Shown here: positions 20,359-36,930 of the stretch, piece by piece
Position numbering within the stretch: the first letter of the stretch is position 1
Layout of the letters: each line of letters begins with the position of its first letter
Source: Bacteroidaceae bacterium
GTDB lineage: Bacteria; Bacteroidota; Bacteroidia; Bacteroidales; Bacteroidaceae
Direction: 5' to 3'
Assembly (NCBI GenBank): GCA_017398805.1
Contig: JAFQEZ010000071.1
Location: forward strand, 1-37,108
Length of the DNA: 37,108 bases
Notes under the pieces: model-generated
Database searches by the model: none
What the model was told of the DNA's origin: nothing
Seen by the model: the letters and a program-made list of their open reading frames with translations, nothing else
Program-made: the position numbers and the translations under genes

Positions 20359-20500
20359 CAACCTTTTGTGCGTCGCAGGAACTGTGAATTATTGTTAATT
20401 TGAAATTTAACTATCGGTTTTGTCAATAGATAATGCTTTGTTTAGGGTACAGAGAACGGAGAAAAGATGAAAGTTGAAAGATGAAAGAGTACAGAGAACA

Positions 20501-20578
20501 GATGAAAGCTTGTGCAAGCGAGCGAAAGCCAAGTTTACTTGAGTTTTTACAGCGAGTGCAGCCAAGTTTCAAGCCCAC
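20501..20578 (+). repeat. 78-bp direct repeat, copy 1
   Basis: Matches 20716-20793 at 75 of 78 positions. Its core is the perfect palindrome CAAGTTTACTTG followed by a TTTTTACAGCGAGTGCAG-like segment. Diverged relatives are at 24452-24503 and 37006-37058 in opposite orientation. Confidence 0.8.
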
Positions 20579-20715
20579 AAGGTGAGGTGAAAGGTGAAAG
20601 GTGAAAGTGGAAAGTGGGAGCCGTAGGGGCATCCCTTGTGGGTGCCCTAAAGAGTACAACGCCGTAGGGGCGGTACCGGCGTGTCCGCCCAAAAGAGCAA
20701 AGAGTACAGATGAAA

Positions 20716-20793
20716 GATGAAAGCTTGTGCAAGCGAGCGAAATCCAAGTTTACTTGAGTTTTTACAGCGAGCGCAGCCAAGTTTCAATCCCAC
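20716..20793 (+). repeat. 78-bp direct repeat, copy 2
   Basis: Second copy of the element at 20501-20578, differing at three positions. The two copies are 215 bp apart and flank the GC-rich module. Confidence 0.8.
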
Positions 20794-20843
20794 GGAGTGG
20801 GGTTAAAGGTTAAAGGTTAAAGGTGAAAACTGCGGGTAAGCGA

Positions 20844-25889: not shown

Positions 25890-27299
25890 TCACTCTTCCG
25901 GCATGAACATCGGGTCCCAAGCAGGAAGCATTGTAGGCTTCTCTTCGAGAATCTTGAGCACGTTTGCAGGTACATATTTCTTGTCCACTACAAGACGGAA
26001 CATGTACTCGTTGAACCACTCGTCGGTCATGATGAGTGTCCCGTGGAAACCGGAGTTTGCACCCCAGCTGTTCTCAACCTGCCATTTTACAGGGTTGCCG
26101 TTCTTGTCGAGGTCGACGGCCTTCAGTGTCATTGCGTGCGATGAACCGCTGTCGAATGTCATCACTCTCTCTCTCTTGTCCATCCCGAACTCGATGCCGA
26201 ACAGTTCGCCGTAGTTGTAGTTGGCGATGTCGAGTGTTCCGCGTTTAGAGTCGAGGAACTTGCCCACGTCGCACGAGAAGTACATCATTGTGCTGTCTTT
26301 TATTGATGCAATTGCCATCTTTTTTATCTCGTCGAGCGGCAGGTTGATGTAGAGCCAGTTGTGCCCGTCGTAAAGGTGGCGGTCATACTCAATCTCATAG
26401 CTTTTCCAGTAGGGGCGGGTGGGGTCGTTCATCAGCATCACATAGTCATCCTGCAGGTTGATGTTCAGATACTTTTCGTAGAAACTCTTCGGAGTGTACT
26501 TCTGAGGCTCCTCGCGGTATTTGCCGCTTGCATCCTTCGGGGCCCATGTGAACTCTGTGGGCGGAACACCGTATACCTGTGCGAGCATCTTGTATACAAC
26601 CTTCAGCTGCTCTTTTTTCATTTCAAGCAGTTTCTTCTCTTTTACACCCTTCTCGTGTGCATCGCGCAGTTCAAGGCCGAACTCGCGCAGCTTTGTGGTC
26701 AGCAATGCCGAGAAAGCACCAGTGTTGTCGCTTGTGTAGCTCTCCTTCATCACACCTTTGGGCACGACACCGTACTTTGCAATGAGGTCGGCAACACCGG
26801 TGAATGTACCTCCGTCGCTCAACGGGTGCTTGAACAGCCACTCCACGGTGCGGTCGTCATATGGTTTCTTGCGTGTGTCAATGACACCCTGCAGGAATAG
26901 GTTCGACTTCTCCAACTGGTCATAGAAGAAATTGTATACCTGTGAGAACTCGAATGCACCAAGGTTTTCGTCGGCAATCATCTTTGCGCGGAGCACGTTC
27001 ATGCCGGTGAAGAGCCAGCATCGTCCCGATGATTTCTGGTCGGTGATGCCCTTTGATTCTACACTGTGGCTGAAGTGTGTATCCATTTCGTTCAGGTTCT
27101 CCTGGTTTACAGCCAGTACCTTCACCGAATTTGCAAGCATCACATTCTGTAGAGCCTTCTCTGCACCTGTAGGTGCATAGCTCTCCTTCAATTCCTGCAG
27201 CATCTGTGCATCGATGCCGCCCTTGTTCTCCTGTGCTGCGGCACCGGCCGACAGCAACAAGGCTGCTGCAATGCAGCCCAAAAGTCTTGTTTTGTTCAT
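25890..27299 (-). CDS. Secreted bleomycin-hydrolase-type C1 peptidase
   Basis: A 469-residue protein from Met at 27299, which starts a signal peptide (MNKTRLLGCIAAALLLSAGA). The papain-fold C1B triad is visible: Cys94 in QKSSGRCWLF, His388 in SGSSHAMTL and Asn410 in WQVENSWG. C1B enzymes (PepC, bleomycin hydrolase) are normally cytosolic aminopeptidases; the signal peptide points to a periplasmic or surface role here. It lies 32 nt after the Sel1 gene whose signal-peptide DNA is nearly identical, and the two are probably co-transcribed. Confidence 0.93.
   Translation of the reverse strand: MNKTRLLGCIAAALLLSAGAAAQENKGGIDAQMLQELKESYAPTGAEKALQNVMLANSVKVLAVNQENLNEMDTHFSHSVESKGITDQKSSGRCWLFTGMNVLRAKMIADENLGAFEFSQVYNFFYDQLEKSNLFLQGVIDTRKKPYDDRTVEWLFKHPLSDGGTFTGVADLIAKYGVVPKGVMKESYTSDNTGAFSALLTTKLREFGLELRDAHEKGVKEKKLLEMKKEQLKVVYKMLAQVYGVPPTEFTWAPKDASGKYREEPQKYTPKSFYEKYLNINLQDDYVMLMNDPTRPYWKSYEIEYDRHLYDGHNWLYINLPLDEIKKMAIASIKDSTMMYFSCDVGKFLDSKRGTLDIANYNYGELFGIEFGMDKRERVMTFDSGSSHAMTLKAVDLDKNGNPVKWQVENSWGANSGFHGTLIMTDEWFNEYMFRLVVDKKYVPANVLKILEEKPTMLPAWDPMFMPEE
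27235..27299 (-). repeat. Signal-peptide DNA cassette, copy 1 (C1 peptidase)
   Basis: 65 bp coding for the signal peptide of the C1 peptidase, identical at 63 of 65 positions to 28371-28435. Sequence similarity stops at the start codon on one side and at the end of the signal peptide on the other. Confidence 0.9.
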
Positions 27300-27331
27300 G
27301 GTATTTGTATTAGAATATTTGTCAAACAGTA

Positions 27332-28435
27332 TCAGTAGCCTAATTTCTTTAATGCTCGTTGCGCCTTTACATATCCTTGTTCTGCCGCTTTTCTGTACCA
27401 TTTTACAGCTTCCTCATCGGATTGTTTAACCCCTAGACCATTTTCATAGCAAACTCCGAGGTGATATTGCGCAAAAGTATCTCCTTGTTCTGCCGCTTTT
27501 CTGTACCATTTTACAGCTTCTTCATAAGATTGATTAACTCCTTGGCCATTGTAATAGCAATTTCCGAGATTAAATTGCGCCTGTGCCAATCCTTGTTCCG
27601 CCGCCAAGGTGTACCATTTTACAGCTTCTTTATATGATTGTTTAACTACTTTACCCTCGTCATAATAGATTCCGAGGTTCAATTGCGCCGATGCAATTCC
27701 TTGTTCTGCTGCTTTATTCCACCATTTTACAGCTTCTTCATATGATTGCTCGACACCTTGGCCATTGTTATAACAGTTTCCGAGGTTATATTGCGCCGGT
27801 GCAAACCCTTGTTCTGCCGCTTTTCTGTACCATTTTACAGCTTCTTTATATGATTGTTTAACTACTTTACCCTCGTCATAATAGATTCCGAGGTTATATT
27901 GCGCCAATGCATATCCTTGTTCCGCCGCCAAGGTGTACCATTTTACAGCTTCTTCATAAGATTGTTTAACCCCTTGGCCATGTTTATAGCAGTATCCAAG
28001 GTTCAATTGCGCCTGTGCCAATCCTTGTTCCGTCGCCAAGGTGTACCATTTTACAGCTTCATCATCGGATTGTTTCACCCCTTGACCTTTGTAATAGCAA
28101 AATCCGAGGTTATATTGCGCCTTTGCATCTCCTTGTTCCGCCGCCAAGGTGTACCATTTTACAGCTTCTTCATATGATTGCTTGACACCTTGGCCATTGT
28201 AATAGCAAACTCCGAGGTGAAATTGTGCTTCAGCACTTCCTTGTTCTGCGAGTTTTGTAAAAATATGTACTGCGGTTTTGTAATCTCCTTTTTCGTATGC
28301 ATTAATTGCATCTTCCAAAGTCTCGACATGTTGCGTTTGTGTAAATGATGTTCTGTCATTGCATTCTTTTGCTGTGGCACCGGCCGACAGCAACAAGGCT
28401 GCTGCAATGCAGCTCAAAAGTCTTGTTTTGTTCAT
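27332..28435 (-). CDS. Secreted Sel1-repeat protein (8 repeats)
   Basis: A 367-residue protein: signal peptide (MNKTRLLSCIAAALLLSAGA, then TAKEC), a short TPR-like helix pair (DAINAYEKGDYKTAVHIFTK) and eight 36-residue Sel1 repeats of the type AQYNLGxCYxxGQGVKQSYEEAVKWY. Sel1 repeats form a solenoid that binds other proteins. At DNA level the repeats are a 108-bp tandem array; a two-repeat unit has been copied, since the same 59-bp stretch occurs at 27623-27681 and 27837-27895 (216 bp apart). No catalytic domain is seen. The promoter at 28465-28495 probably drives this gene and the C1 peptidase. Confidence 0.9.
   Translation of the reverse strand: MNKTRLLSCIAAALLLSAGATAKECNDRTSFTQTQHVETLEDAINAYEKGDYKTAVHIFTKLAEQGSAEAQFHLGVCYYNGQGVKQSYEEAVKWYTLAAEQGDAKAQYNLGFCYYKGQGVKQSDDEAVKWYTLATEQGLAQAQLNLGYCYKHGQGVKQSYEEAVKWYTLAAEQGYALAQYNLGIYYDEGKVVKQSYKEAVKWYRKAAEQGFAPAQYNLGNCYNNGQGVEQSYEEAVKWWNKAAEQGIASAQLNLGIYYDEGKVVKQSYKEAVKWYTLAAEQGLAQAQFNLGNCYYNGQGVNQSYEEAVKWYRKAAEQGDTFAQYHLGVCYENGLGVKQSDEEAVKWYRKAAEQGYVKAQRALKKLGY
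28371..28435 (-). repeat. Signal-peptide DNA cassette, copy 2 (Sel1 protein)
   Basis: Second copy of the 65-bp signal-peptide segment (see 27235-27299), here attached to an unrelated Sel1 solenoid. Confidence 0.9.
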
Positions 28436-28619: not shown

Positions 28620-29126
28620 TTACCAATTTGTGAACTCTGCGACATATAGCCAATTAGTTGATTGGCTAAAAACGACCCTATCACCACGGTCAAGATAGTC
28701 ATTAGTTAAATATTTATGCATTTGAATGTTTCCATCAATAAGTTTTAATCTGTAAGATACATATCCTATTTCACAATAAGCAACAGAATTTCTTAAGTAT
28801 ATTTTTGTGGCTTCACCATTGGTTCCACCAGAATCAGTCATAATCATATTGTCACGTAATTTCCAGTTACCATATAATTTTTCATAACAGACTGTAATAG
28901 TCATTGTGTTATCTGTGGGAATATCAACTTTATGCTTCTTAATACCTTCGCTAGTTTTGAACTGTACAAGGAGTTTGTCGTCTCCAATATCTTTGATATT
29001 GATGGCTTCAATGTAGGTTTCCTTAGTGGGATACCATACGCCTTCAAATGGTGATGCATCCTGTGCTGATGCATAGTTATTAGACAGCAAAACAAATAAT
29101 ACGATAATGCTTAAATACTTTTTCAT
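28620..29126 (-). CDS. Secreted small protein of unknown function
   Basis: 168 residues with a signal peptide (MKKYLSIIVLFVLLSNNYASAQ). The mature part, beginning SPFEGVWYPTKETYI and continuing with alternating beta-type segments (MTITVCYEKLYGNWKLRDNMIM), resembles small lipocalin-like or META-like beta proteins of Bacteroidota in style, but I do not recognise the family. No lipobox Cys. It stands alone, with 300 bp upstream and a terminator downstream. Confidence 0.7.
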   Translation of the reverse strand: MKKYLSIIVLFVLLSNNYASAQDASPFEGVWYPTKETYIEAINIKDIGDDKLLVQFKTSEGIKKHKVDIPTDNTMTITVCYEKLYGNWKLRDNMIMTDSGGTNGEATKIYLRNSVAYCEIGYVSYRLKLIDGNIQMHKYLTNDYLDRGDRVVFSQSTNWLYVAEFTNW

Positions 29127-29426
29127 ATATAAATATGTTTAGAATTAGTTTAACATTATTAAGAACTTCTATGAAATATATCATGTATTGTAATAAGATA
29201 ATGTGGTTGGGCTCTTTTATTCCATTAAAGTGATGAGATGATATTTGAAGTGTTGCTGATAAACAGATGCAAGTTATAGAAAATATCATTAACATACAAG
29301 AATGTAAACGAAAAAATCTTTTCTATGTTATTAACTAAGCAAGGAGTGAATCAAAGCCATGAACAAATGCATACAGGCATACAGTCTTGTAACGAATACT
29401 AGATAGAGACTTCGACAACTATCTGT
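29127..29426. other. Gene-free 300-bp gap
   Basis: A/T-rich and no convincing gene or promoter. The only structure noted is an 8-bp tandem GCATACAG pair at 29369-29384. The promoter for the downstream secreted protein must lie here but has no good TAnnTTTG match. Confidence 0.4.
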
Positions 29427-29978
29427 TCATTTACTATTCAGTGCCTCAAAGTCTACTGTTATTCTCGGGTCTTTCTCCGTGCCGTATGTCTCGTCATATT
29501 TCTCAAACATTTCAATGTTGTAGTTTGCCAATTTAAATCCATTGTTTTTGGCTTCTTGCCACCATTCCTTTGCCTTCTTCTTGTCTTTCTCCACACCTGT
29601 TCCATTGGCATACATTATGCCGATGTTGTTCTGTGCCCTGAGGTGTCCCTGCTCTGCTGCCCTTTTCCACCATTTGAAAGCCTCCTCGGCCGATTTGTTG
29701 ACTCCTTCGCCCAAAAAGTATCGTGTGCCGAGTCTGTATTGTGCCAACGAATTGCCTCTTTCCGCCGCAATGCGGTAGAGGCGGACAGCCTCCTTGTGGT
29801 TGTCTTTATTATAGGCATCCTGGGCCTTTTCTATGATGGAGTAGACATCCTCGTCTCCTGAAGTGAATGCCGTATCTTGCGGCCACGCGTTATATGGCCA
29901 TGCGGTGGAGGTTCTTCCTGTAGCATTTGATGTCAATGCGATAATGACAAGCAGTGCAAAAATATTAGTCTTTTTCAT
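29427..29978 (-). CDS. Secreted Sel1-repeat protein with AWP motif
   Basis: 183 residues: signal peptide (MKKTNIFALLVIIALTSNATG), a mature start with two AWPxx units (TAWPYNAWPQD), a TPR-like segment (VYSIIEKAQDAYNKDNHKEAV) and about two and a half Sel1 repeats (LAQYRLGTRYFLGEGVNKS, RAQNNIGIMYANGTGVEKD). Likely a periplasmic or surface scaffold. It shares the AWPxx motif with the gene just upstream (30133-30903) although the rest of the two proteins is unrelated. Confidence 0.85.
   Translation of the reverse strand: MKKTNIFALLVIIALTSNATGRTSTAWPYNAWPQDTAFTSGDEDVYSIIEKAQDAYNKDNHKEAVRLYRIAAERGNSLAQYRLGTRYFLGEGVNKSAEEAFKWWKRAAEQGHLRAQNNIGIMYANGTGVEKDKKKAKEWWQEAKNNGFKLANYNIEMFEKYDETYGTEKDPRITVDFEALNSK
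29881..29907 (-). repeat. AWPxx repeat units (2)
   Basis: Two units of the 15-bp GGCCAnGC-type repeat (plus-strand reading) coding AWPYN and AWPQD, next to the signal peptide. The same unit is repeated five times at 30767-30835. Confidence 0.75.
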
Positions 29979-30008
29979 AATAATGTCTTTTGTTTGATGA
30001 AATTAATA

Positions 30009-30061
30009 ATCAATCGTATTTGTTATCCTGATTATCGGGAATAATCCAAACAAAGATTGAT
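30009..30061 (-). promoter_or_regulatory. Nested hairpin upstream of AWP-Sel1 gene
   Basis: Three nested arms (ATCAATC/GATTGAT, TTTGTT/AACAAA, GATTAT/ATAATC) close on the loop CGGGA, making 19 base pairs with two small internal bulges. It lies 72 nt after the FISUMP gene stop and 31 nt before the next start codon, so it may be a 5' leader structure, an RNA-processing site or a weak terminator. Confidence 0.5.
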
Positions 30062-30132
30062 GGAGATAATTCGCCATGCTCAGTTTGACAAAATTTTTGA
30101 ATGGATTTTATCCCATAAGTGGTTTATTTTGG

Positions 30133-30903
30133 TTACAGGTCTACTACAGGTCGTACACATAGGGCGATATCCCTGCGGCGGTAGCTGACACTGAGTGAGG
30201 GGCCAAAATATGTTGACTCGAATCCGAGACCTTTGAGGTCATCGAAGCTGTAGACGTACGGAACCGAAGCGCAGAGTGGCCTAATGAAGCAGAGTTCGTA
30301 TGCAGAGTTGTTTTCCTCGTTTTTATAAGGTGTAGAGCTCCAGATGCTTCCGCCGCCTTCTTCACAATCCTGCTGCGATTCGTATACGACGGACGGCAGG
30401 AAAATGGAATTGCCGTTGGGCCCGGTGACTATGTATCCTTTGTGTCCGTTTACTTTTGTCCAGCACCATTTACAAAGGTCCAAAAGTTCTCGAATTTCGC
30501 CTTCGGTAGGCATACGCCAAGGCTTTCCCCACTTTACACGTGCAATGTCGCGTGATGTTCCGCCAATATCATCAAGTTCCATTCCCACAGTTTGACATTT
30601 CCTCCATTCCTTGGCTTGAGGGGCGGTCTCTCCCCAAAAGTAGTGATTGCCATTGTCGCTCGGAAGTTCTGCTCCCACATTGCATGTTGCCCACTTTACG
30701 CTCAAGCCCAGGTCTACATACTCGTGCCCGTTAACGCTGCCGCTTACAGTTGTGGTTGTCTTCTCCGGCCAAGCATCATCCGGCCAAGCATCATCCGGCC
30801 ACGCTTCGTATGGCCATGCTTCGCCCGGCCACGCTGCAAATGAGTTCTCCAATGAAATTAAAAGAACTGCCAATGTCATAATTGTTCTCATGAAAGTTTT
30901 CAT
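30133..30903 (-). CDS. Secreted FISUMP-type protein with AWPxx repeats
   Basis: 256 residues from Met at 30903. The other possible start (30909) is two codons earlier; the leader of the Sel1 genes has CATACGACTATG at the same place, where only the second start is possible, so 30903 is preferred. After the signal peptide (ending ENSFA) come five units AWPGE, AWPYE, AWPDD, AWPDD, AWPEK, then a FISUMP (Fibrobacter succinogenes major paralogous) domain: YVDLGLSVKWATCNVGAELP, HYFWGET, WRMPTEGEIRELL and the ending CVRPV. Such domains occur in secreted proteins and are of unknown function. Confidence 0.88.
   Translation of the reverse strand: MKTFMRTIMTLAVLLISLENSFAAWPGEAWPYEAWPDDAWPDDAWPEKTTTTVSGSVNGHEYVDLGLSVKWATCNVGAELPSDNGNHYFWGETAPQAKEWRKCQTVGMELDDIGGTSRDIARVKWGKPWRMPTEGEIRELLDLCKWCWTKVNGHKGYIVTGPNGNSIFLPSVVYESQQDCEEGGGSIWSSTPYKNEENNSAYELCFIRPLCASVPYVYSFDDLKGLGFESTYFGPSLSVSYRRRDIALCVRPVVDL
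30767..30835 (-). repeat. AWPxx 15-bp tandem repeat (5 units)
   Basis: Units begin at 30767, 30782, 30797, 30812 and 30827 (plus-strand words GGCCAAGC, GGCCACGC, GGCCATGC). The first two are identical. The repeat encodes the N-terminus of the mature protein. Confidence 0.9.
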
Positions 30904-30978
30904 AGTCATATGTTTTATAGGTTAGTAATATGTTGTTTTTTTGTTTTGTCTTGTGTGGCTTTGATATATTAGGTGACG

Positions 30979-32319
30979 TTACTTGAGTCTTGAAACCTCG
31001 TCAATGGTGTTTAGCATCAGCAAGTATGTCTCATAAACTTCCTCAAGTACGGAGTATTCATATACTGAGTGTATTGCATGTTGTCCGGAAAAGATCACCA
31101 ATCCTCCTCTGAGTCCTTTGGCTGCCATCATAGCAGCAGTGGTACCGCCTCTGTTTGAGAGCAGGTCAAGTTCCTTGTCCATTCTGGCTGCAGCTTTCAT
31201 TAGTGATGGTATGCATTCGGTATGTAAGGAGTATGCCACATTTTCATATTCAATCTCATCCATTGCCGTCTTGATGCCTACATTCGGGTAATCTTTCTCT
31301 ATTGATGCAAGAGCATCCTTGAGAATCTTGTCATATTTCTCTCCATCCGCAACATCAAAATAACGCAGACGCAACTTGACACTCCAATCGTTTTCCTCTT
31401 GTGTGAGTCCGTAGGCTTGCATATATCCCTGAGTTCCCTCAGAGTGTTCAGGGCGGCATTCAAGTGGAATTGCTGATATAAGCTGTGCTGCGGCGGCCAA
31501 AGCGTCTCCAAGCCCCATGGCCTTAGCTTCCCCCGGATGGGCATATCTGCCAATGAACCTGATAATGATTCCTCTTGCTGAGAAGTTTGCCACTCCAACC
31601 TCCTTGTTTCCTTCGCCGTCGAGGTCATAGAAGATCTCAGGGTTGAAATACGCAGTGTCAATTCTTTCTGCAGATTTGCCGATGTCTTCATTCGGACACC
31701 ACACAAACTGCACTTTGCCATGTTTCATGTCCGATTTCAGCAATGTTTCCAGTATTGACATAGATGCTGCGCATCCGTTCTTGCAATCTCCTCCCAGAAG
31801 GGTTGTTCCGTCGGTGTGTATAATGGTCTTGCCTACAAGGCTTTTAAGGTCACGGCCTTCTTTGGAGTTAGGGCTTAAAATGATGTCTGGGCTAAGCTTG
31901 ATGTCTCCGCCTTTGTATTTTGTGACAATTGGCCGGATGTTTTCACCAGGAGCCTCTTCTGAGTAGTCAAGATGACAACTGATACCGATAGCAGGGACCT
32001 CATATTCGAGATTTGACGGGACTGTTACGTATACGTAGTTGTCAGGGCTGTGATAAACATCTGCACCCAGTTTCTTAGCCTCCGATGCAAGCAGTTTTGC
32101 CATTTTCTCTTGCCCCAGTGTCATTGTCCAGGTATTGTTCACGTTGTCAAATTTTGAATAGCTTTCCACTGACAGGTACTCCAAAAGGCGTTCTAATAGC
32201 CTCTCGTGAGATATTGCATGTTTGGCAATCTCCTGTTCGTTGTGGTTGTTCTGAGCCACAGCCCCAAGGCTGATACAAGTAAATACGATTATTGAAAATA
32301 ATGTTTTTGCAGTTTTCAT
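30979..32319 (-). CDS. Secreted M20 peptidase (PepT-like)
   Basis: 446 residues with a signal peptide (MKTAKTLFSIIVFTCISLGAVAQ). M20 metal motifs: HLD (His116, Asp118), GTTLLGGDCKNG (Asp178, bridging), NEDIG (Glu211 general base, Asp212) and YDLDGEG (Asp234), with HAIHSVYEYS near the end. PepT and other tripeptidases usually carry Glu-Glu where this protein has Glu-Asp; the chemistry could still work because Asp can bind zinc. PepT is normally cytosolic, so a secreted version suggests peptide scavenging or processing outside the cytoplasm. Downstream, 75 nt away, is the FISUMP gene. Confidence 0.9.
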   Translation of the reverse strand: MKTAKTLFSIIVFTCISLGAVAQNNHNEQEIAKHAISHERLLERLLEYLSVESYSKFDNVNNTWTMTLGQEKMAKLLASEAKKLGADVYHSPDNYVYVTVPSNLEYEVPAIGISCHLDYSEEAPGENIRPIVTKYKGGDIKLSPDIILSPNSKEGRDLKSLVGKTIIHTDGTTLLGGDCKNGCAASMSILETLLKSDMKHGKVQFVWCPNEDIGKSAERIDTAYFNPEIFYDLDGEGNKEVGVANFSARGIIIRFIGRYAHPGEAKAMGLGDALAAAAQLISAIPLECRPEHSEGTQGYMQAYGLTQEENDWSVKLRLRYFDVADGEKYDKILKDALASIEKDYPNVGIKTAMDEIEYENVAYSLHTECIPSLMKAAARMDKELDLLSNRGGTTAAMMAAKGLRGGLVIFSGQHAIHSVYEYSVLEEVYETYLLMLNTIDEVSRLK

Positions 32320-32406: not shown

Positions 32407-32781
32407 TTATGAAATTCTGTTCAACAAACCTCTGAAGAGCTGTACTGCTCCAAATACGATTGCACCCCATGTCACTAAATATGTACCGCCATTCTCGCTT
32501 GCAGTCATATATGTAGTGATTGTAATTGACAGTCCGCCAAAGAACCAGAGAGCACCAAACAGTATATCCTTTTCAGCTTCCCTATTCTCCATTTTCTTTA
32601 TCTGCTCCTTTAGGTCCATGATTATGATATCTGCATCTTTGGCTGACACGCCATTCTCCACAAGAAGTTCCTTGGTCCTTTTTGCACTTCTTCCTTGTAC
32701 AAACATCAGATCAGCTGCGTATTCGTAAATCTCTTGTGCGATGCTCTGGGTCATGTTCTCCTGATTGTTCATTGTCTTCAT
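32407..32781 (-). CDS. Two-TM membrane protein of unknown function
   Basis: 124 residues. The soluble N-terminal part (about 1-68) is helical (AQEIYEYAADLMFVQGRSAKRTKELL, then SAKDADIIIMDLKEQIKKME). Two TM segments follow (about 73-91 and 101-118), ending GGTYLVTWGAIVFGAVQLFRGLL. This layout occurs in small Bacteroidota and Firmicutes membrane proteins without known role. It carries promoter cassette A and may be transcribed together with the M20 peptidase 87 nt downstream. Confidence 0.7.
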   Translation of the reverse strand: MKTMNNQENMTQSIAQEIYEYAADLMFVQGRSAKRTKELLVENGVSAKDADIIIMDLKEQIKKMENREAEKDILFGALWFFGGLSITITTYMTASENGGTYLVTWGAIVFGAVQLFRGLLNRIS

Positions 32782-32842: not shown

Positions 32843-32924
32843 CAAATATAGAAGTGCTTTCACGTCTATTTGCCGTTATGGTGTGGCAGAACCCCAAAAA
32901 CGTGTCAAAAACAGGATTTGCAAC
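32843..32924 (-). promoter_or_regulatory. Promoter cassette A (diverged)
   Basis: On the minus strand GTTGCAAA (32917-32924), 28 bp, TGCCACA (32882-32888), 31 bp, then the -7 box TATATTTG (32843-32850). Spacing is identical to cassettes B-D although the first spacer (28 bp) matches cassette B at only about a third of positions. Drives the two-TM gene. Confidence 0.65.
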
Positions 32925-32936
32925 ACTGTTTCCAGT

Positions 32937-34130
32937 TCAGGATTTGCGATTTGCAGAACCTTTTCTTAATAATTTATTGACCTCTTCAAGCATTTCCCGT
33001 GCTCCGTCATGTCCCTGCTCTGCCGCAACCTGAAGCCATTCATATCCCTCCATTTGTCTGTTTCCTTTATCCATGTTGCGCAGCAGTACATCTCCAAGAC
33101 AGAACTGCGCCTCAGCATCTCCCTGTTCGGCTGCAGCCTCCCACCATTCAATGGCCTTTTGTAACGACTTTGTTGTGCCCTTTCCGGTTATGTAGAATAC
33201 TCCGGTGTTGTACTGCGCTTCGGCGTCTCCCTGTTCAGCGGCCTTCAGCATCCATTCAAAAGCCTTTGTTGCTGATTTTGTTGTACCCTTGCCCATATCA
33301 TAGTATCTGCCAACGAGTACCTGAGCATCAACATCTCCCTGCCCGGCTGCCTTCAGCCACCATTTGAAAGCTTCTGCATCCGATTTTTGGACACCACGTC
33401 CCAGGTCGTAACAATCGCCTATCTTCTTTTGGGCGCCTGCGTGTCCTGCTTCGGCAGCTTTTCTGTACCATTTCGCAGCTTCGGCATAAGATTGTTTCAC
33501 ACCTCTGCCATTATAATAGCAGATACCGATTCCTTCCTGTGCATCCACATTACCCTTTTCTGCAGCCTTTTTGAACCATTCTGCAGCCTTTTCATATGAT
33601 TGCTTTGTTCCATGGCCAAGGTAATGGCACATGCCCAGTTTGAATTGTGCCGGCTCATAGCCCTGTTCTGCCGATTTTCTGTACCACTCTATGGCTTTTT
33701 CGTGTGATTGTCTAATGCCCGCGCCGTCATGGTAGCAGCCGCCAAGATAGAACTGTGCGTACATGTTGCCTTGTTCGGCAGATGCCTTGTAGAACTCTGC
33801 GGCTTCCTTCAGCACTCTGTTTTTCTCTTCGGCCGACTTGGCATGATTTGCTGCCGCACAGAGGTATGACGCCACATTGCACTGTGCTGAGGCTACTCCC
33901 TGTTTTGCGGCTTTCAACCACCATTCTGCGGCCTTATCATGTGACTCCTCGACATCCTCACCTACAGCATAGCAGTTGCCGAGTCTGTTCTGTGCGTCGG
34001 CATTGCCCTGCTTGGCTGCTGCCATCAGTTCCGATATGTTCTCATAGTCTCCTTTGACAGTTTCTTTAATGATTCTTGCTTTCTTAGATGAGTTGAACAA
34101 TGAGTTGAATAGGTTCTTGAAGAATTTCAT
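32937..34130 (-). CDS. Sel1-repeat protein with amphipathic N-terminus (9-10 repeats)
   Basis: 397 residues from Met at 34130; the longer open frame runs into the promoter cassette and is rejected. The start MKFFKNLFNSLFNSSK has no signal peptide pattern but is amphipathic, suggesting inner-membrane association. About nine to ten Sel1 repeats follow (AQNRLGNCYAVGEDVEES, AQFYLGGCYHDGAGIRQS and so on), one with an insertion of about 20 residues (CAAANHAKSAEEKNRVLK). The first 16 residues and the whole 5' region are shared with the gene at 34346-35128. Probably a scaffold protein; partner unknown. Confidence 0.88.
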   Translation of the reverse strand: MKFFKNLFNSLFNSSKKARIIKETVKGDYENISELMAAAKQGNADAQNRLGNCYAVGEDVEESHDKAAEWWLKAAKQGVASAQCNVASYLCAAANHAKSAEEKNRVLKEAAEFYKASAEQGNMYAQFYLGGCYHDGAGIRQSHEKAIEWYRKSAEQGYEPAQFKLGMCHYLGHGTKQSYEKAAEWFKKAAEKGNVDAQEGIGICYYNGRGVKQSYAEAAKWYRKAAEAGHAGAQKKIGDCYDLGRGVQKSDAEAFKWWLKAAGQGDVDAQVLVGRYYDMGKGTTKSATKAFEWMLKAAEQGDAEAQYNTGVFYITGKGTTKSLQKAIEWWEAAAEQGDAEAQFCLGDVLLRNMDKGNRQMEGYEWLQVAAEQGHDGAREMLEEVNKLLRKGSANRKS

Positions 34131-34211
34131 AGTCGTATGTTTTAATGGTTGATAATTATTATTTTTGTCTTGTGCTTTTTTATCGGGAGTTGTTTCCCTC
34201 TTCCGTTGTGA

Positions 34212-34293
34212 CAAAAGTATATCCGCAATGAAGGCAAGTCAACGTTCTGCTGTGGCAAAAGCCGAAATAGAGTATTCTGGGCAGGTTTGCAAC
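34212..34293 (-). promoter_or_regulatory. Promoter cassette B
   Basis: GTTGCAAA (34286-34293), TGCCACA (34251-34257), a TTGA -33-like element (34239-34242), 19 bp, then TACTTTTG (34212-34219). Homology to cassette C continues through the leader (AAAACATACGACTATG) and first 16 codons; homology to cassette D covers about 34190-34303. Confidence 0.8.
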
Positions 34294-34345
34294 AGTGGTT
34301 TTGGACTTTACTGTCTCAGTTCTTACTCTTCTTATTCTTCTTCTT

Positions 34346-35128
34346 CTACTTGCCCTTCTTATCCTTCTTACTCCTCAATGTTTGCTCAAGGCTTGCTTGG
34401 GCGCAAATGTTTCCTTGCTCTGCCGATTTCTGCCACCATTTTATGGCCTCTTCCTCCGATTGCTCGACGCCACGACCTGAACTGTAGCATAAAGCGAGAC
34501 TGTGCTGTGCGTAGGCATGTCCTTGCTCTGCGGCTTTTCTGAACCATTTCGCAGCTTCTGTATATGATTCTTGTACACCTTCGCCATACTCATATCTGCA
34601 CCCAAGATGATGTTGTGCGTCTGCATATCCCTGCTCAGCGGCTTTTCTCCACCATTTAACAGATTCTTCATAAGACTGTGTAACGCCTTTGCCTTCGTAA
34701 TAGCACCATGCCAAGGCATTCTGTGCCTCATCAAGTCCCTGCTCTGCAGCCATACGGAACCATCTTTCCGCCTCTTTATAAGATTTTTCTACAACTACTC
34801 CGCTATTATAAAATACTCCCAGCCAGTATTGTGCTTCCGGCAATCCCTGTTCTGCAGGATCTCTCAACCACTTTATTGATTTTTCGTAAGATTTCTCGAC
34901 TCCTGTTCCATTTAAATAGCACATTGCAAGGTAATACTTTGAAACTTGTGACTCTTCGTCATAATCCAGTGCAGCACCTTTTCTCCACCATTCTACAGCT
35001 TTTTCATATTCCATCCTGTCATAATATCCTGTCCCGATAATGTTCTTTACACCTGCACTTTCGCGCTCTTCGGGTTGTTCTTTTGATGAGTTGAACAATG
35101 AGTTGAATAGATTCTTGAAGAATTTCAT
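34346..35128 (-). CDS. Sel1-repeat protein with amphipathic N-terminus (5-6 repeats)
   Basis: 260 residues. The same MKFFKNLFNSLFNSSK start as the gene downstream, then a TPR-like segment (YYDRMEYEKAVEWWRKGAALDYD) and five to six Sel1 repeats (AQYWLGVFYNSGVVVEKS, AQHHLGCRYEYGEGVQES), ending in a Lys-rich tail. Beyond the N-terminus it is only generally similar to its neighbour, so either the 5' part was exchanged or the solenoids diverged quickly. Not secreted by any signal I can see. Confidence 0.87.
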   Translation of the reverse strand: MKFFKNLFNSLFNSSKEQPEERESAGVKNIIGTGYYDRMEYEKAVEWWRKGAALDYDEESQVSKYYLAMCYLNGTGVEKSYEKSIKWLRDPAEQGLPEAQYWLGVFYNSGVVVEKSYKEAERWFRMAAEQGLDEAQNALAWCYYEGKGVTQSYEESVKWWRKAAEQGYADAQHHLGCRYEYGEGVQESYTEAAKWFRKAAEQGHAYAQHSLALCYSSGRGVEQSEEEAIKWWQKSAEQGNICAQASLEQTLRSKKDKKGK

Positions 35129-35208
35129 AGTCGTATGTTTTAATGGTTGATAATTATTGTTTCTGTCTTGTGCTTTTTATCGGGAGTTGTTTCCCTCTTT
35201 CGTTGTGA

Positions 35209-35290
35209 CAAAAGTATAACCGCAATTAAGGCAAGTCAACGTTCCGCTGTGGCAAAAGCCGTAATAGCTATCTCTGACGGGATTTGCAAC
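35209..35290 (-). promoter_or_regulatory. Promoter cassette C
   Basis: GTTGCAAA (35283-35290), TGCCACA (35248-35254), TTGA (35236-35239), 19 bp, TACTTTTG (35209-35216). Nearly identical to cassette B around the -7/-33 region; the outer spacer has drifted. About 35291-35414 shows nothing further. Confidence 0.8.
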
Positions 35291-35414
35291 GCTTTTTTAA
35301 GGCAATACCGGCAGTTGAAACGGGTAGCTATTGTATGGCGAATGTTCTACTCTTTGTCCGCATATAAAAGAATGCTTTTCATGAAGTTTGTAATAAAAAT
35401 CCGGTCCAATGGAT

Positions 35415-36692
35415 TCAATTGTCTTTGGTGAATTTTTTGACGAGCCAGCCTAACCACACCGGTAAGGAATTAAGTCTTTTATTAAAATCACCGGTTGCAT
35501 GCAACATTCCCAGGTTGTATGCTTCTTTTCTGATTTTTTCCTTTGAATCTTGAAGCATCTCTTCGGTATGCTTGCTCTCTTTGTCCTTGAGCTGTTTGCG
35601 TGTTCCCACTATGTTGAACTCAGTGCGATTCATATAAAAATTCTTTTTACATTTACTGCATTTCAATATAGAGGTCTCTCCTTTGATTTTTGTGTGGTCA
35701 TAGCTATGGCCGCAGAATGGACATTTCTGTTGGGATGATATGATGCCTCCGGTATCTATTTTGCTGTCATTGTCTATTAGCTTGACAATAAGTTCGCCTA
35801 ATATCTCATTGTTTTTGTTTAATTGATTCCCATTCTCATTGTGCTCTATTAATGTGTAGTCGTATATCTTTGCGAAGATAGATATTGGCCTCAGAGGTTC
35901 TTTATTTTCGTCGAATAAGCTACGGTCGTCAAAGAAGTACTTGTTGTAATTATCTAGGTCGTCTGTGATTCTGTTCTCAATCTGCGATATGATACTGTTT
36001 AGTGTCGCGACATTCCTGCGGAATAAAGCATGACTTTCTTCAAGTCTTTTGAAGCAATCCAAATACAGTCCGCGGGTATTCGGATTTTTATGCCACAGTT
36101 CAATAACCTCTGTCAGGAAATAATCATTCGTCCCGTTGCTCATCTTGCCGTTCACGGTTTTTATAATGGCGTTGCAGTCGGAGTACATGTCTATATTCAA
36201 GTAACCCAAATAGTGCGTGGTGTTGTTGCTGGTTGTTTTGTACCCTTTGAGTATGAGTTCTCCGAAACCTACATAAATTGTACATAAATCCGTATATACC
36301 TCGTTTACAATAGGCGCCGAAGGGAAATAGATATTGTATGAATATAAATACTTGTGACATATTTCGTGTGCAAGTATGGCTACAGTAGCATTGGGGTTAT
36401 TCCTGAATTCTTCCGAGACATCGATTTTTACTATTTTCCCGGAATTCAGGTTTATGCACCCTCCAGTGTTTGCAGCTGTTTGACAAAATCTGCATTCCGG
36501 TGTATAGGAGTCCATTCCAAGGAAATCAAGCATAAAACGGGCTTCAAGGTTGAGATTCTCGTCTGTAATGCATGCCTGGGTAATCACTCTTGGAGTGTAT
36601 TCTACGTATTCTTTACGTGGTAATCGCTTCTCAAAATCTGTCAGATATGACAGAATTTTCTTTGGGCTCAAATAAATCTCTTGTGCTTTCAT
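35415..36692 (-). CDS. HExxH metalloprotease-like protein with zinc ribbon
   Basis: 425 residues, no signal peptide or TM. The centre has AILAHEICHKYLY (HEICH 109-113) followed by NEVYTDLCTIYVGFGELIL, giving a likely third zinc ligand at Glu131 (or Asp135), as in gluzincin-type putative proteases. A CRFC pair at 67-70 precedes it. A zinc ribbon is at 324-348 (CPFC and CSKC), then a charged helix and GWLVKKFTKDN. Function unknown; a cytosolic protease or a zinc-stabilised structural protein are both possible. Transcribed from cassette D with a leader of about 150 nt that contains a short ORF. Confidence 0.75.
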   Translation of the reverse strand: MKAQEIYLSPKKILSYLTDFEKRLPRKEYVEYTPRVITQACITDENLNLEARFMLDFLGMDSYTPECRFCQTAANTGGCINLNSGKIVKIDVSEEFRNNPNATVAILAHEICHKYLYSYNIYFPSAPIVNEVYTDLCTIYVGFGELILKGYKTTSNNTTHYLGYLNIDMYSDCNAIIKTVNGKMSNGTNDYFLTEVIELWHKNPNTRGLYLDCFKRLEESHALFRRNVATLNSIISQIENRITDDLDNYNKYFFDDRSLFDENKEPLRPISIFAKIYDYTLIEHNENGNQLNKNNEILGELIVKLIDNDSKIDTGGIISSQQKCPFCGHSYDHTKIKGETSILKCSKCKKNFYMNRTEFNIVGTRKQLKDKESKHTEEMLQDSKEKIRKEAYNLGMLHATGDFNKRLNSLPVWLGWLVKKFTKDN

Positions 36693-36716
36693 GGTATTGA
36701 GTATTATAAGGGTGAA

Positions 36717-36779
36717 TTATATAAAAACAGTACAGACAACCAACGTAAAGATTGCAAGTACGCGTGTTAAAGTTTTCAT
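36717..36779 (-). CDS. Orphan 20-codon hydrophobic ORF in leader
   Basis: Begins MKTLTRVLAIF and is almost entirely hydrophobic after two basic residues, like a signal peptide that stops before any mature protein. Its start sits after a leader ending AACCAT..ATG, in the same relative place as the start codons behind cassettes B and C. It could be a leader peptide, a small membrane protein, or the leftover signal peptide of a lost gene. Confidence 0.4.
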   Translation of the reverse strand: MKTLTRVLAIFTLVVCTVFI

Positions 36780-36848
36780 GGCATTTGTATTTTTATGGTT
36801 AATGACAACATTGTTTATGAATGGATGTGTTTCCCTCTTTCGTTGTGA

Positions 36849-36930
36849 CAAAAGTATATCCGCAATTAAGGCAAGTCAACGTTCTGCTGTGGCAAAAGCC
36901 GAAATAGAGTATTCTGGGCAGGTTTGCAAC
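36849..36930 (-). promoter_or_regulatory. Promoter cassette D
   Basis: GTTGCAAA (36923-36930), TGCCACA (36888-36894), TTGA (36876-36879), 19 bp, TACTTTTG (36849-36856). Almost identical to cassette B over about 36829-36939. Confidence 0.8.

Follow-up and report, generated by a model that had tools for sequence, protein, structure and literature searches.

Genes and 82-bp units in the window

The window, which is the whole stretch of 37,108 nt that was analysed, comes from a Bacteroidaceae gut bacterium and contains four exact copies of an 82-bp architecture, GTTGCAAA-N28-TGCCACA-N31-TAnnTTTG, all on the minus strand. Copy A (32843..32924) has GTTGCAAA at 32917-32924, TGCCACA at 32882-32888 and TATATTTG at 32843-32850. 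Copy B (34212..34293) has the same three parts at 34286-34293, 34251-34257 and 34212-34219, copy C (35209..35290) at 35283-35290, 35248-35254 and 35209-35216, and copy D (36849..36930) at 36923-36930, 36888-36894 and 36849-36856, the last part reading TACTTTTG in B, C and D. An earlier sequence-only reading had described four copies with exactly equal spacing, and all four were recovered without mismatch at these positions.

Copy A precedes a gene (32407..32781, minus strand) for a protein of 124 aa that has two membrane helices and no Pfam family. It is followed on the same strand by genes for an M20 peptidase (30979-32319), an Lcl_C-like protein (30133-30909) and a Sel1 protein (29427-29978), all assigned with Pfam, and by an unannotated protein gene (28620-29126). 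TAnnTTTG was not found within 260 bp upstream of the ATGs of these four genes (28620..32319), which possibly form an operon read as one transcript from promoter A. Copy B precedes a gene for a 397-aa Sel1-repeat protein (32937..34130, minus strand, from the reading frame) and copy C one for a 260-aa Sel1-repeat protein (34346..35128, minus strand; Pfam Sel1, E 2e-53). The gene behind copy D (35415..36692, minus strand) encodes a 425-aa protein whose metalloprotease region is of the HExxH type and whose end resembles a zinc ribbon, and its match to a SprT-like family was sub-threshold (E 7e-4). Calling the genes behind the sites unrelated was too strong, as the two Sel1 proteins have a common N-terminus and the two-helix protein is a weak relative (23% identity, E 1e-5) of a 111-aa protein behind a further site on contig C32 of the same genome.

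The interval from site D to the HExxH gene contains a 20-codon frame (36717-36779, minus strand) that is the remnant of a signal-peptide start. It matches the start of a secreted protein of 273 aa encoded behind a site in the congeneric genome G005 (L111:3364-4185), which suggests that a deletion placed the HExxH gene behind promoter D.

The C1 peptidase gene of the window (25890-27344) is the equivalent of the gene that usually lies behind mfd. The latter was located in 41 of the 44 congeneric genomes, and in the 30 loci read by eye the gene directly behind it was the C1 peptidase in 23 and another gene in six, with one locus unreadable. Because the peptidase of this genome (G000) is in the window while its mfd is on contig C83, the Sel1, HExxH and two-helix genes of the window seem to form an island between mfd and the C1 peptidase, given an inferred join of the two contigs; the ends of the window contig and C83 do not overlap, and all that the two share is 19 nt close to the two sites. 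The island behind mfd holds one gene in the congeneric genome G022, whose close sister G041 lacks the island.

The C1 peptidase gene and the adjoining Sel1 gene are 94% identical over a 71-nt start that encodes the signal peptide (27229-27299 and 28365-28435), which suggests a copied signal sequence. A 137-nt direct repeat, 88% identical, lies at 20477-20613 and 20692-20828 beside a BspA-type leucine-rich-repeat gene.

With up to two mismatches allowed, GTTGCAAA-N28-TGCCACA had six matches in the window, compared to a mean of 0.14 in shuffled sequences, and none of 100 shuffles reached six. The six are the four exact copies and B and D again, read on the opposite strand because the motif is almost mirror-symmetric. 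B, C and D are carried by one recently duplicated 117-nt unit, the other copies being 83% and 96% identical to that of B, and were therefore counted once, with A counted separately. The four promoters thus stand as regards their architecture, but not as four independent cases. The first spacer of A had been described as near-random, which was overstated: A and C agree at 51% across both spacers, as against a mean pairwise identity of 26% for the shuffled spacers of six representatives (A, C, C32, C83, G022:C55 and G022:C61).

The 83-96% identity over 117 nt favours an alternative in which gene cassettes were copied together with their promoters in a variable island, the equal spacing being inherited rather than selected. 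The near identity of the two copies in G005 and the clustering of sites in islands speak for the same account, which is taken up again below with the remaining copies.

Further copies and the refined site

The genome of the window (2.71 Mb in 108 contigs, completeness 87%) is an incomplete MAG, as is G005. A search of it for the motif, proposed in the sequence-only reading, gave six places at up to three mismatches and none with the reversed control. Two of these were additional to the four in the window: C32:31760 (one mismatch) and C83:93937 (two mismatches, with TGCAACG replacing TGCCACA). Across the 44 congeneric genomes, up to two mismatches gave ten places in three genomes (six in G000, two in G005, two in G022), again with none in the reversed controls. 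The match on G022:C34 lies inside a 731-codon open frame and was treated as chance, and G022:C55 was added from a free-spacing search, with spacers N28 and N32. The two free-spacing searches each matched 28 of the 44 genomes, their controls giving 9 and 6 matches in all, and G022:C55 alone was traced further. A free-spacing match with N28 on G036:C129 is inside a 188-codon open frame, had no match in the fixed-spacing search and was rejected.

Sites were thus present in two of the 43 other congeneric genomes (G005 and G022, two each) and in none of the remaining 41. A lack of further copies in the genome, together with loss in close relatives, had been named as a sign of recent duplication; with two more copies in the genome, and sites present in two other congeneric genomes and absent in 41, the outcome is mixed but favours function. 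At one mismatch or fewer, only G000 matched among 399 genomes of the family, a sample that does not include G005. The refined pattern described below was found at six loci across 84,980 species, three of which were taken to be the G005 and G022 contigs. The other three, in other phyla, were taken as chance, with one inside a 255-codon open frame and two in none longer than 78 codons.

All ten elements of the three genomes read GTTGCA-N30-TGCMAC, with 36 bp from the start of one half-site to the start of the other. Since TGCMAC mirrors GTTGCA except for one tolerated change, the unit is an imperfect inverted repeat upstream of a -7 element. The assumption that GTTGCAAA and TGCCACA are both bound by protein is supported in that the unit behaves like a regulator-type site, but TGCCACA is the mirror half (TGCMAC) of GTTGCA rather than a motif of another type. 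The distance on to TAnnTTTG is 32 bp in eight of the ten elements and 33 bp in G022:C55, while the tenth, a copy in G005, reads TACCTTTA at the -7 position, with its last base changed.

The -7 site of the Bacteroidales primary sigma factor is given as TANNTTTGY in PMC12632263. Nine of the ten genus elements carry this TAnnTTTG in a fixed position; what sets them apart from a plain primary-sigma promoter is the inverted repeat added upstream. By eye, no common -33 word was seen in A and C83. GTTGCAAA was also considered as a reversed -7 element and rejected, as TAnnTTTG was seen by eye in that direction only at G022:C61.

Among the six representatives, 20 of the 82 columns do not vary, 18 of them inside the three motifs. 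Mean pairwise identity of the spacers is 36%, compared to 26% after shuffling, and they are therefore diverged yet not random. Conservation of the motifs is partly circular, because the motif itself found most of the copies. Non-circular support is the shared location of C83 and G022:C55, directly behind mfd in two species. At this place the motifs were kept and the spacers agreed at just 24%.

Copying alone is true for B, C and D and insufficient for the other copies. Motifs and spacing are retained in A, C32, C83, G022:C55 and G022:C61 even though the spacers have diverged, one location behind mfd is occupied in two species, the sites co-occur with one protein, and a distant group has the same half-sites (both below). 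As an explanation of the whole set, duplication only is quite improbable. At the level of sequence, the fixed architecture and its further copies are established.

Several sites stand directly after a stop codon, which would agree with repeats that act as intrinsic terminators or RNA elements ending the upstream genes. Against this, shuffled sequences fold as well as the ten genus elements (z +1.2 to -1.6), the C in TGCCAC breaks pairing with GTTGCA, and the element G005:5698 sits between divergent genes. A stable hairpin with a T run was found in none of the ten, and the explanation, to which we assign a very low probability overall, was rejected for the genus group.

A candidate regulator and its distant homologs

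The gene beside the C32 site encodes a protein of 1,081 residues (P0001). Its relative in G005 is also beside a site and is split across two contigs (75% and 72% identical), and that in G022 (48%) is encoded by the fifth gene behind a site. Of the 44 congeneric genomes, precisely the three that have sites encode the protein and none of the 41 site-less ones does, a match expected by chance in 1 of 13,244 arrangements, or 1 in 903 leaving out the own genome; the positives are these three genomes only, G000 and G005 being incomplete MAGs. On a tree of Mfd, built for 30 of the 44 genomes, the three are scattered (three changes) and do not form a clade. The small regulon proposed in the sequence-only reading is supported by the further copies and by the absence of sites where the regulator is absent, and is likely; its regulator, called unknown there, now has a candidate, found in just the three site-bearing genomes of the 44.

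The predicted layout of the protein (~1,080 residues) is a lipoprotein-like start, a propeller-like outer part, one membrane helix and a helical cytoplasmic part. One strong membrane helix at about residues 624-662 was predicted in all seven proteins scanned, followed by basic residues in most. Six of the seven have a hydrophobic N-terminus, and the seventh, from G022, has a lipoprotein-like start by eye. Propeller families gave weak matches over portions of the first ~500 residues. A model of 442 residues of the cytoplasmic part was all-helical (pLDDT 89), with no PDB match at E 0.001, and the 98-residue C-terminal end gave a poor model (pLDDT 67) with which no match was found. When the two complete proteins of the genus and three of the distant homologs were compared with Pfam and NCBIfam, neither kinase nor receiver domains were found, nor was AraC/LuxR or any other known family of DNA-binding proteins, and the C-terminal domain had no recognised DNA-binding family or fold. 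Searches of viral contigs and phages yielded no relative, and no description of the family or the site was found in a literature search.

Beyond the genus, a search of the family (matches in 5 of 399 genomes) gave a full-length homolog in G341, and a search of the order (4 of 393) gave full-length homologs in G528 and G045. The family matches in G179 and G273 were frames unlike the regulator, and that of G689 in the order search was unlike it by eye; all three were rejected. In G341, G528 and G045 the homolog gene is followed by genes for a PAP2 phosphatase and a porin (Pfam was run on the G528 pair). Between the homolog gene and this pair lies GTTGCA-N27-YGCAAC, with TAnnTTTG 22-23 bp on. The N27 pattern occurred in 2 of the 393 order genomes, G045 and G528, both with homologs, and in none of the controls, although it had been written from loci that include these two matches. 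A search of 149 genomes of the genus of G045 added only G130, which is 97% identical over 200 residues and has the same site. At the sequence level, the same half-sites thus accompany the distant homologs at another fixed spacing.

A held-out species, Prevotella sp. oral taxon 299 (NC_022111.1), has a full-length homolog with 32.5% identity over 97%. The gene next to it is opposite in direction, no exact site was found within 15.8 kb around the regulator gene, and the PAP2-porin pair is ~84 kb away. Upstream of that pair is GTTGCA-N27-TGCAAC with TATATTTG 23 bp on, a layout that had been predicted beforehand.

Folding of the distant repeats gave z -3.7 in G528, -7.2 in G341, -1.0 in G045 and -2.3 in oral taxon 299. 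In G528 and G341 the stable hairpin is followed by T-rich DNA, and as these repeats fold strongly behind the regulator gene, a terminator role there as well is possible. In oral taxon 299 the 1 kb preceding the site contains the end of no same-strand ATG frame with at least 60 codons, an argument against a terminator at this place despite some folding of the repeat.

The site could also be read by another trans-acting regulator encoded elsewhere, the propeller protein being merely co-regulated or co-travelling. Several sensors are often under the control of one regulator, and the cytoplasmic part of the propeller protein has no recognised DNA-binding domain, which would fit such an arrangement. 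However, it is the one protein noticed near sites in both the genus and the distant groups, it has the topology of a sensor whose output side is cytoplasmic, and oral taxon 299 keeps the site despite the regulator gene and the operon being apart. A separate regulator is thus considered unlikely, and most likely the regulator belongs to this new family of propeller-type membrane proteins.

Proposed mechanism and comparison with known systems

From these sequence comparisons, we consider it fairly likely that the 82-bp unit is a regulated promoter, made of an inverted repeat and a primary-sigma -7 element and held by a dimeric, membrane-spanning regulator that helps the polymerase. The membrane-spanning sensor protein probably binds the control site, and we infer that it does so directly and as a dimer, through a DNA-contacting domain of its own. 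The outer propeller would sense a ligand, the signal would pass through the single membrane helix, the cytoplasmic part would bind both half-sites as a dimer, and the bound regulator would help RNA polymerase. Activation is favoured over repression because the repeat leaves the -7 element free and lies upstream of it. More tentatively, and with somewhat less than even confidence, the proteins may represent a new class of membrane-tethered transcription factors of the Bacteroidales, in which one membrane helix links an outer propeller to a long helical arm and to a DNA-binding end not described before. Still anchored in the membrane, such a factor would hold GTTGCA/TGCMAC half-sites separated by about three turns of the helix, the spacing being re-tuned (33 or 36 bp) between subfamilies.

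SusR and the hybrid two-component systems with outer propellers are membrane-spanning sensor-regulators of Bacteroidetes. They have in common with the candidate, whose features are predicted, an outer sensor, one membrane helix, a cytoplasmic output and control of neighbouring operons. Unlike them, the candidate has no kinase, receiver, AraC/LuxR or known DNA-binding family in Pfam and NCBIfam and was therefore not classed with them, and its targets are not glycan loci. The distant homologs have phosphate-scavenging operons (PAP2 acid phosphatase, Porin_O_P) as neighbours and, apparently, as targets, whereas the sites of the window precede Sel1, HExxH and two-helix genes. The ligand of the distant group is perhaps a phosphorus source, because PAP2 and porin genes, a 5'-nucleotidase (G528) and a histidine phosphatase (G341) are among the neighbours.

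An anonymous repeat thereby becomes a testable regulator-operator pair, with the phosphatase-porin operon as predicted responder in some species and Sel1, protease-like and caspase-domain genes in others. It raises the question of how a membrane-anchored protein reads two half-sites three DNA turns apart.

As a minor observation on gene order, caspase-domain, DUF4384-like and transglutaminase-like genes precede the regulator gene behind the G022:C61 site (L113:10349-15445).
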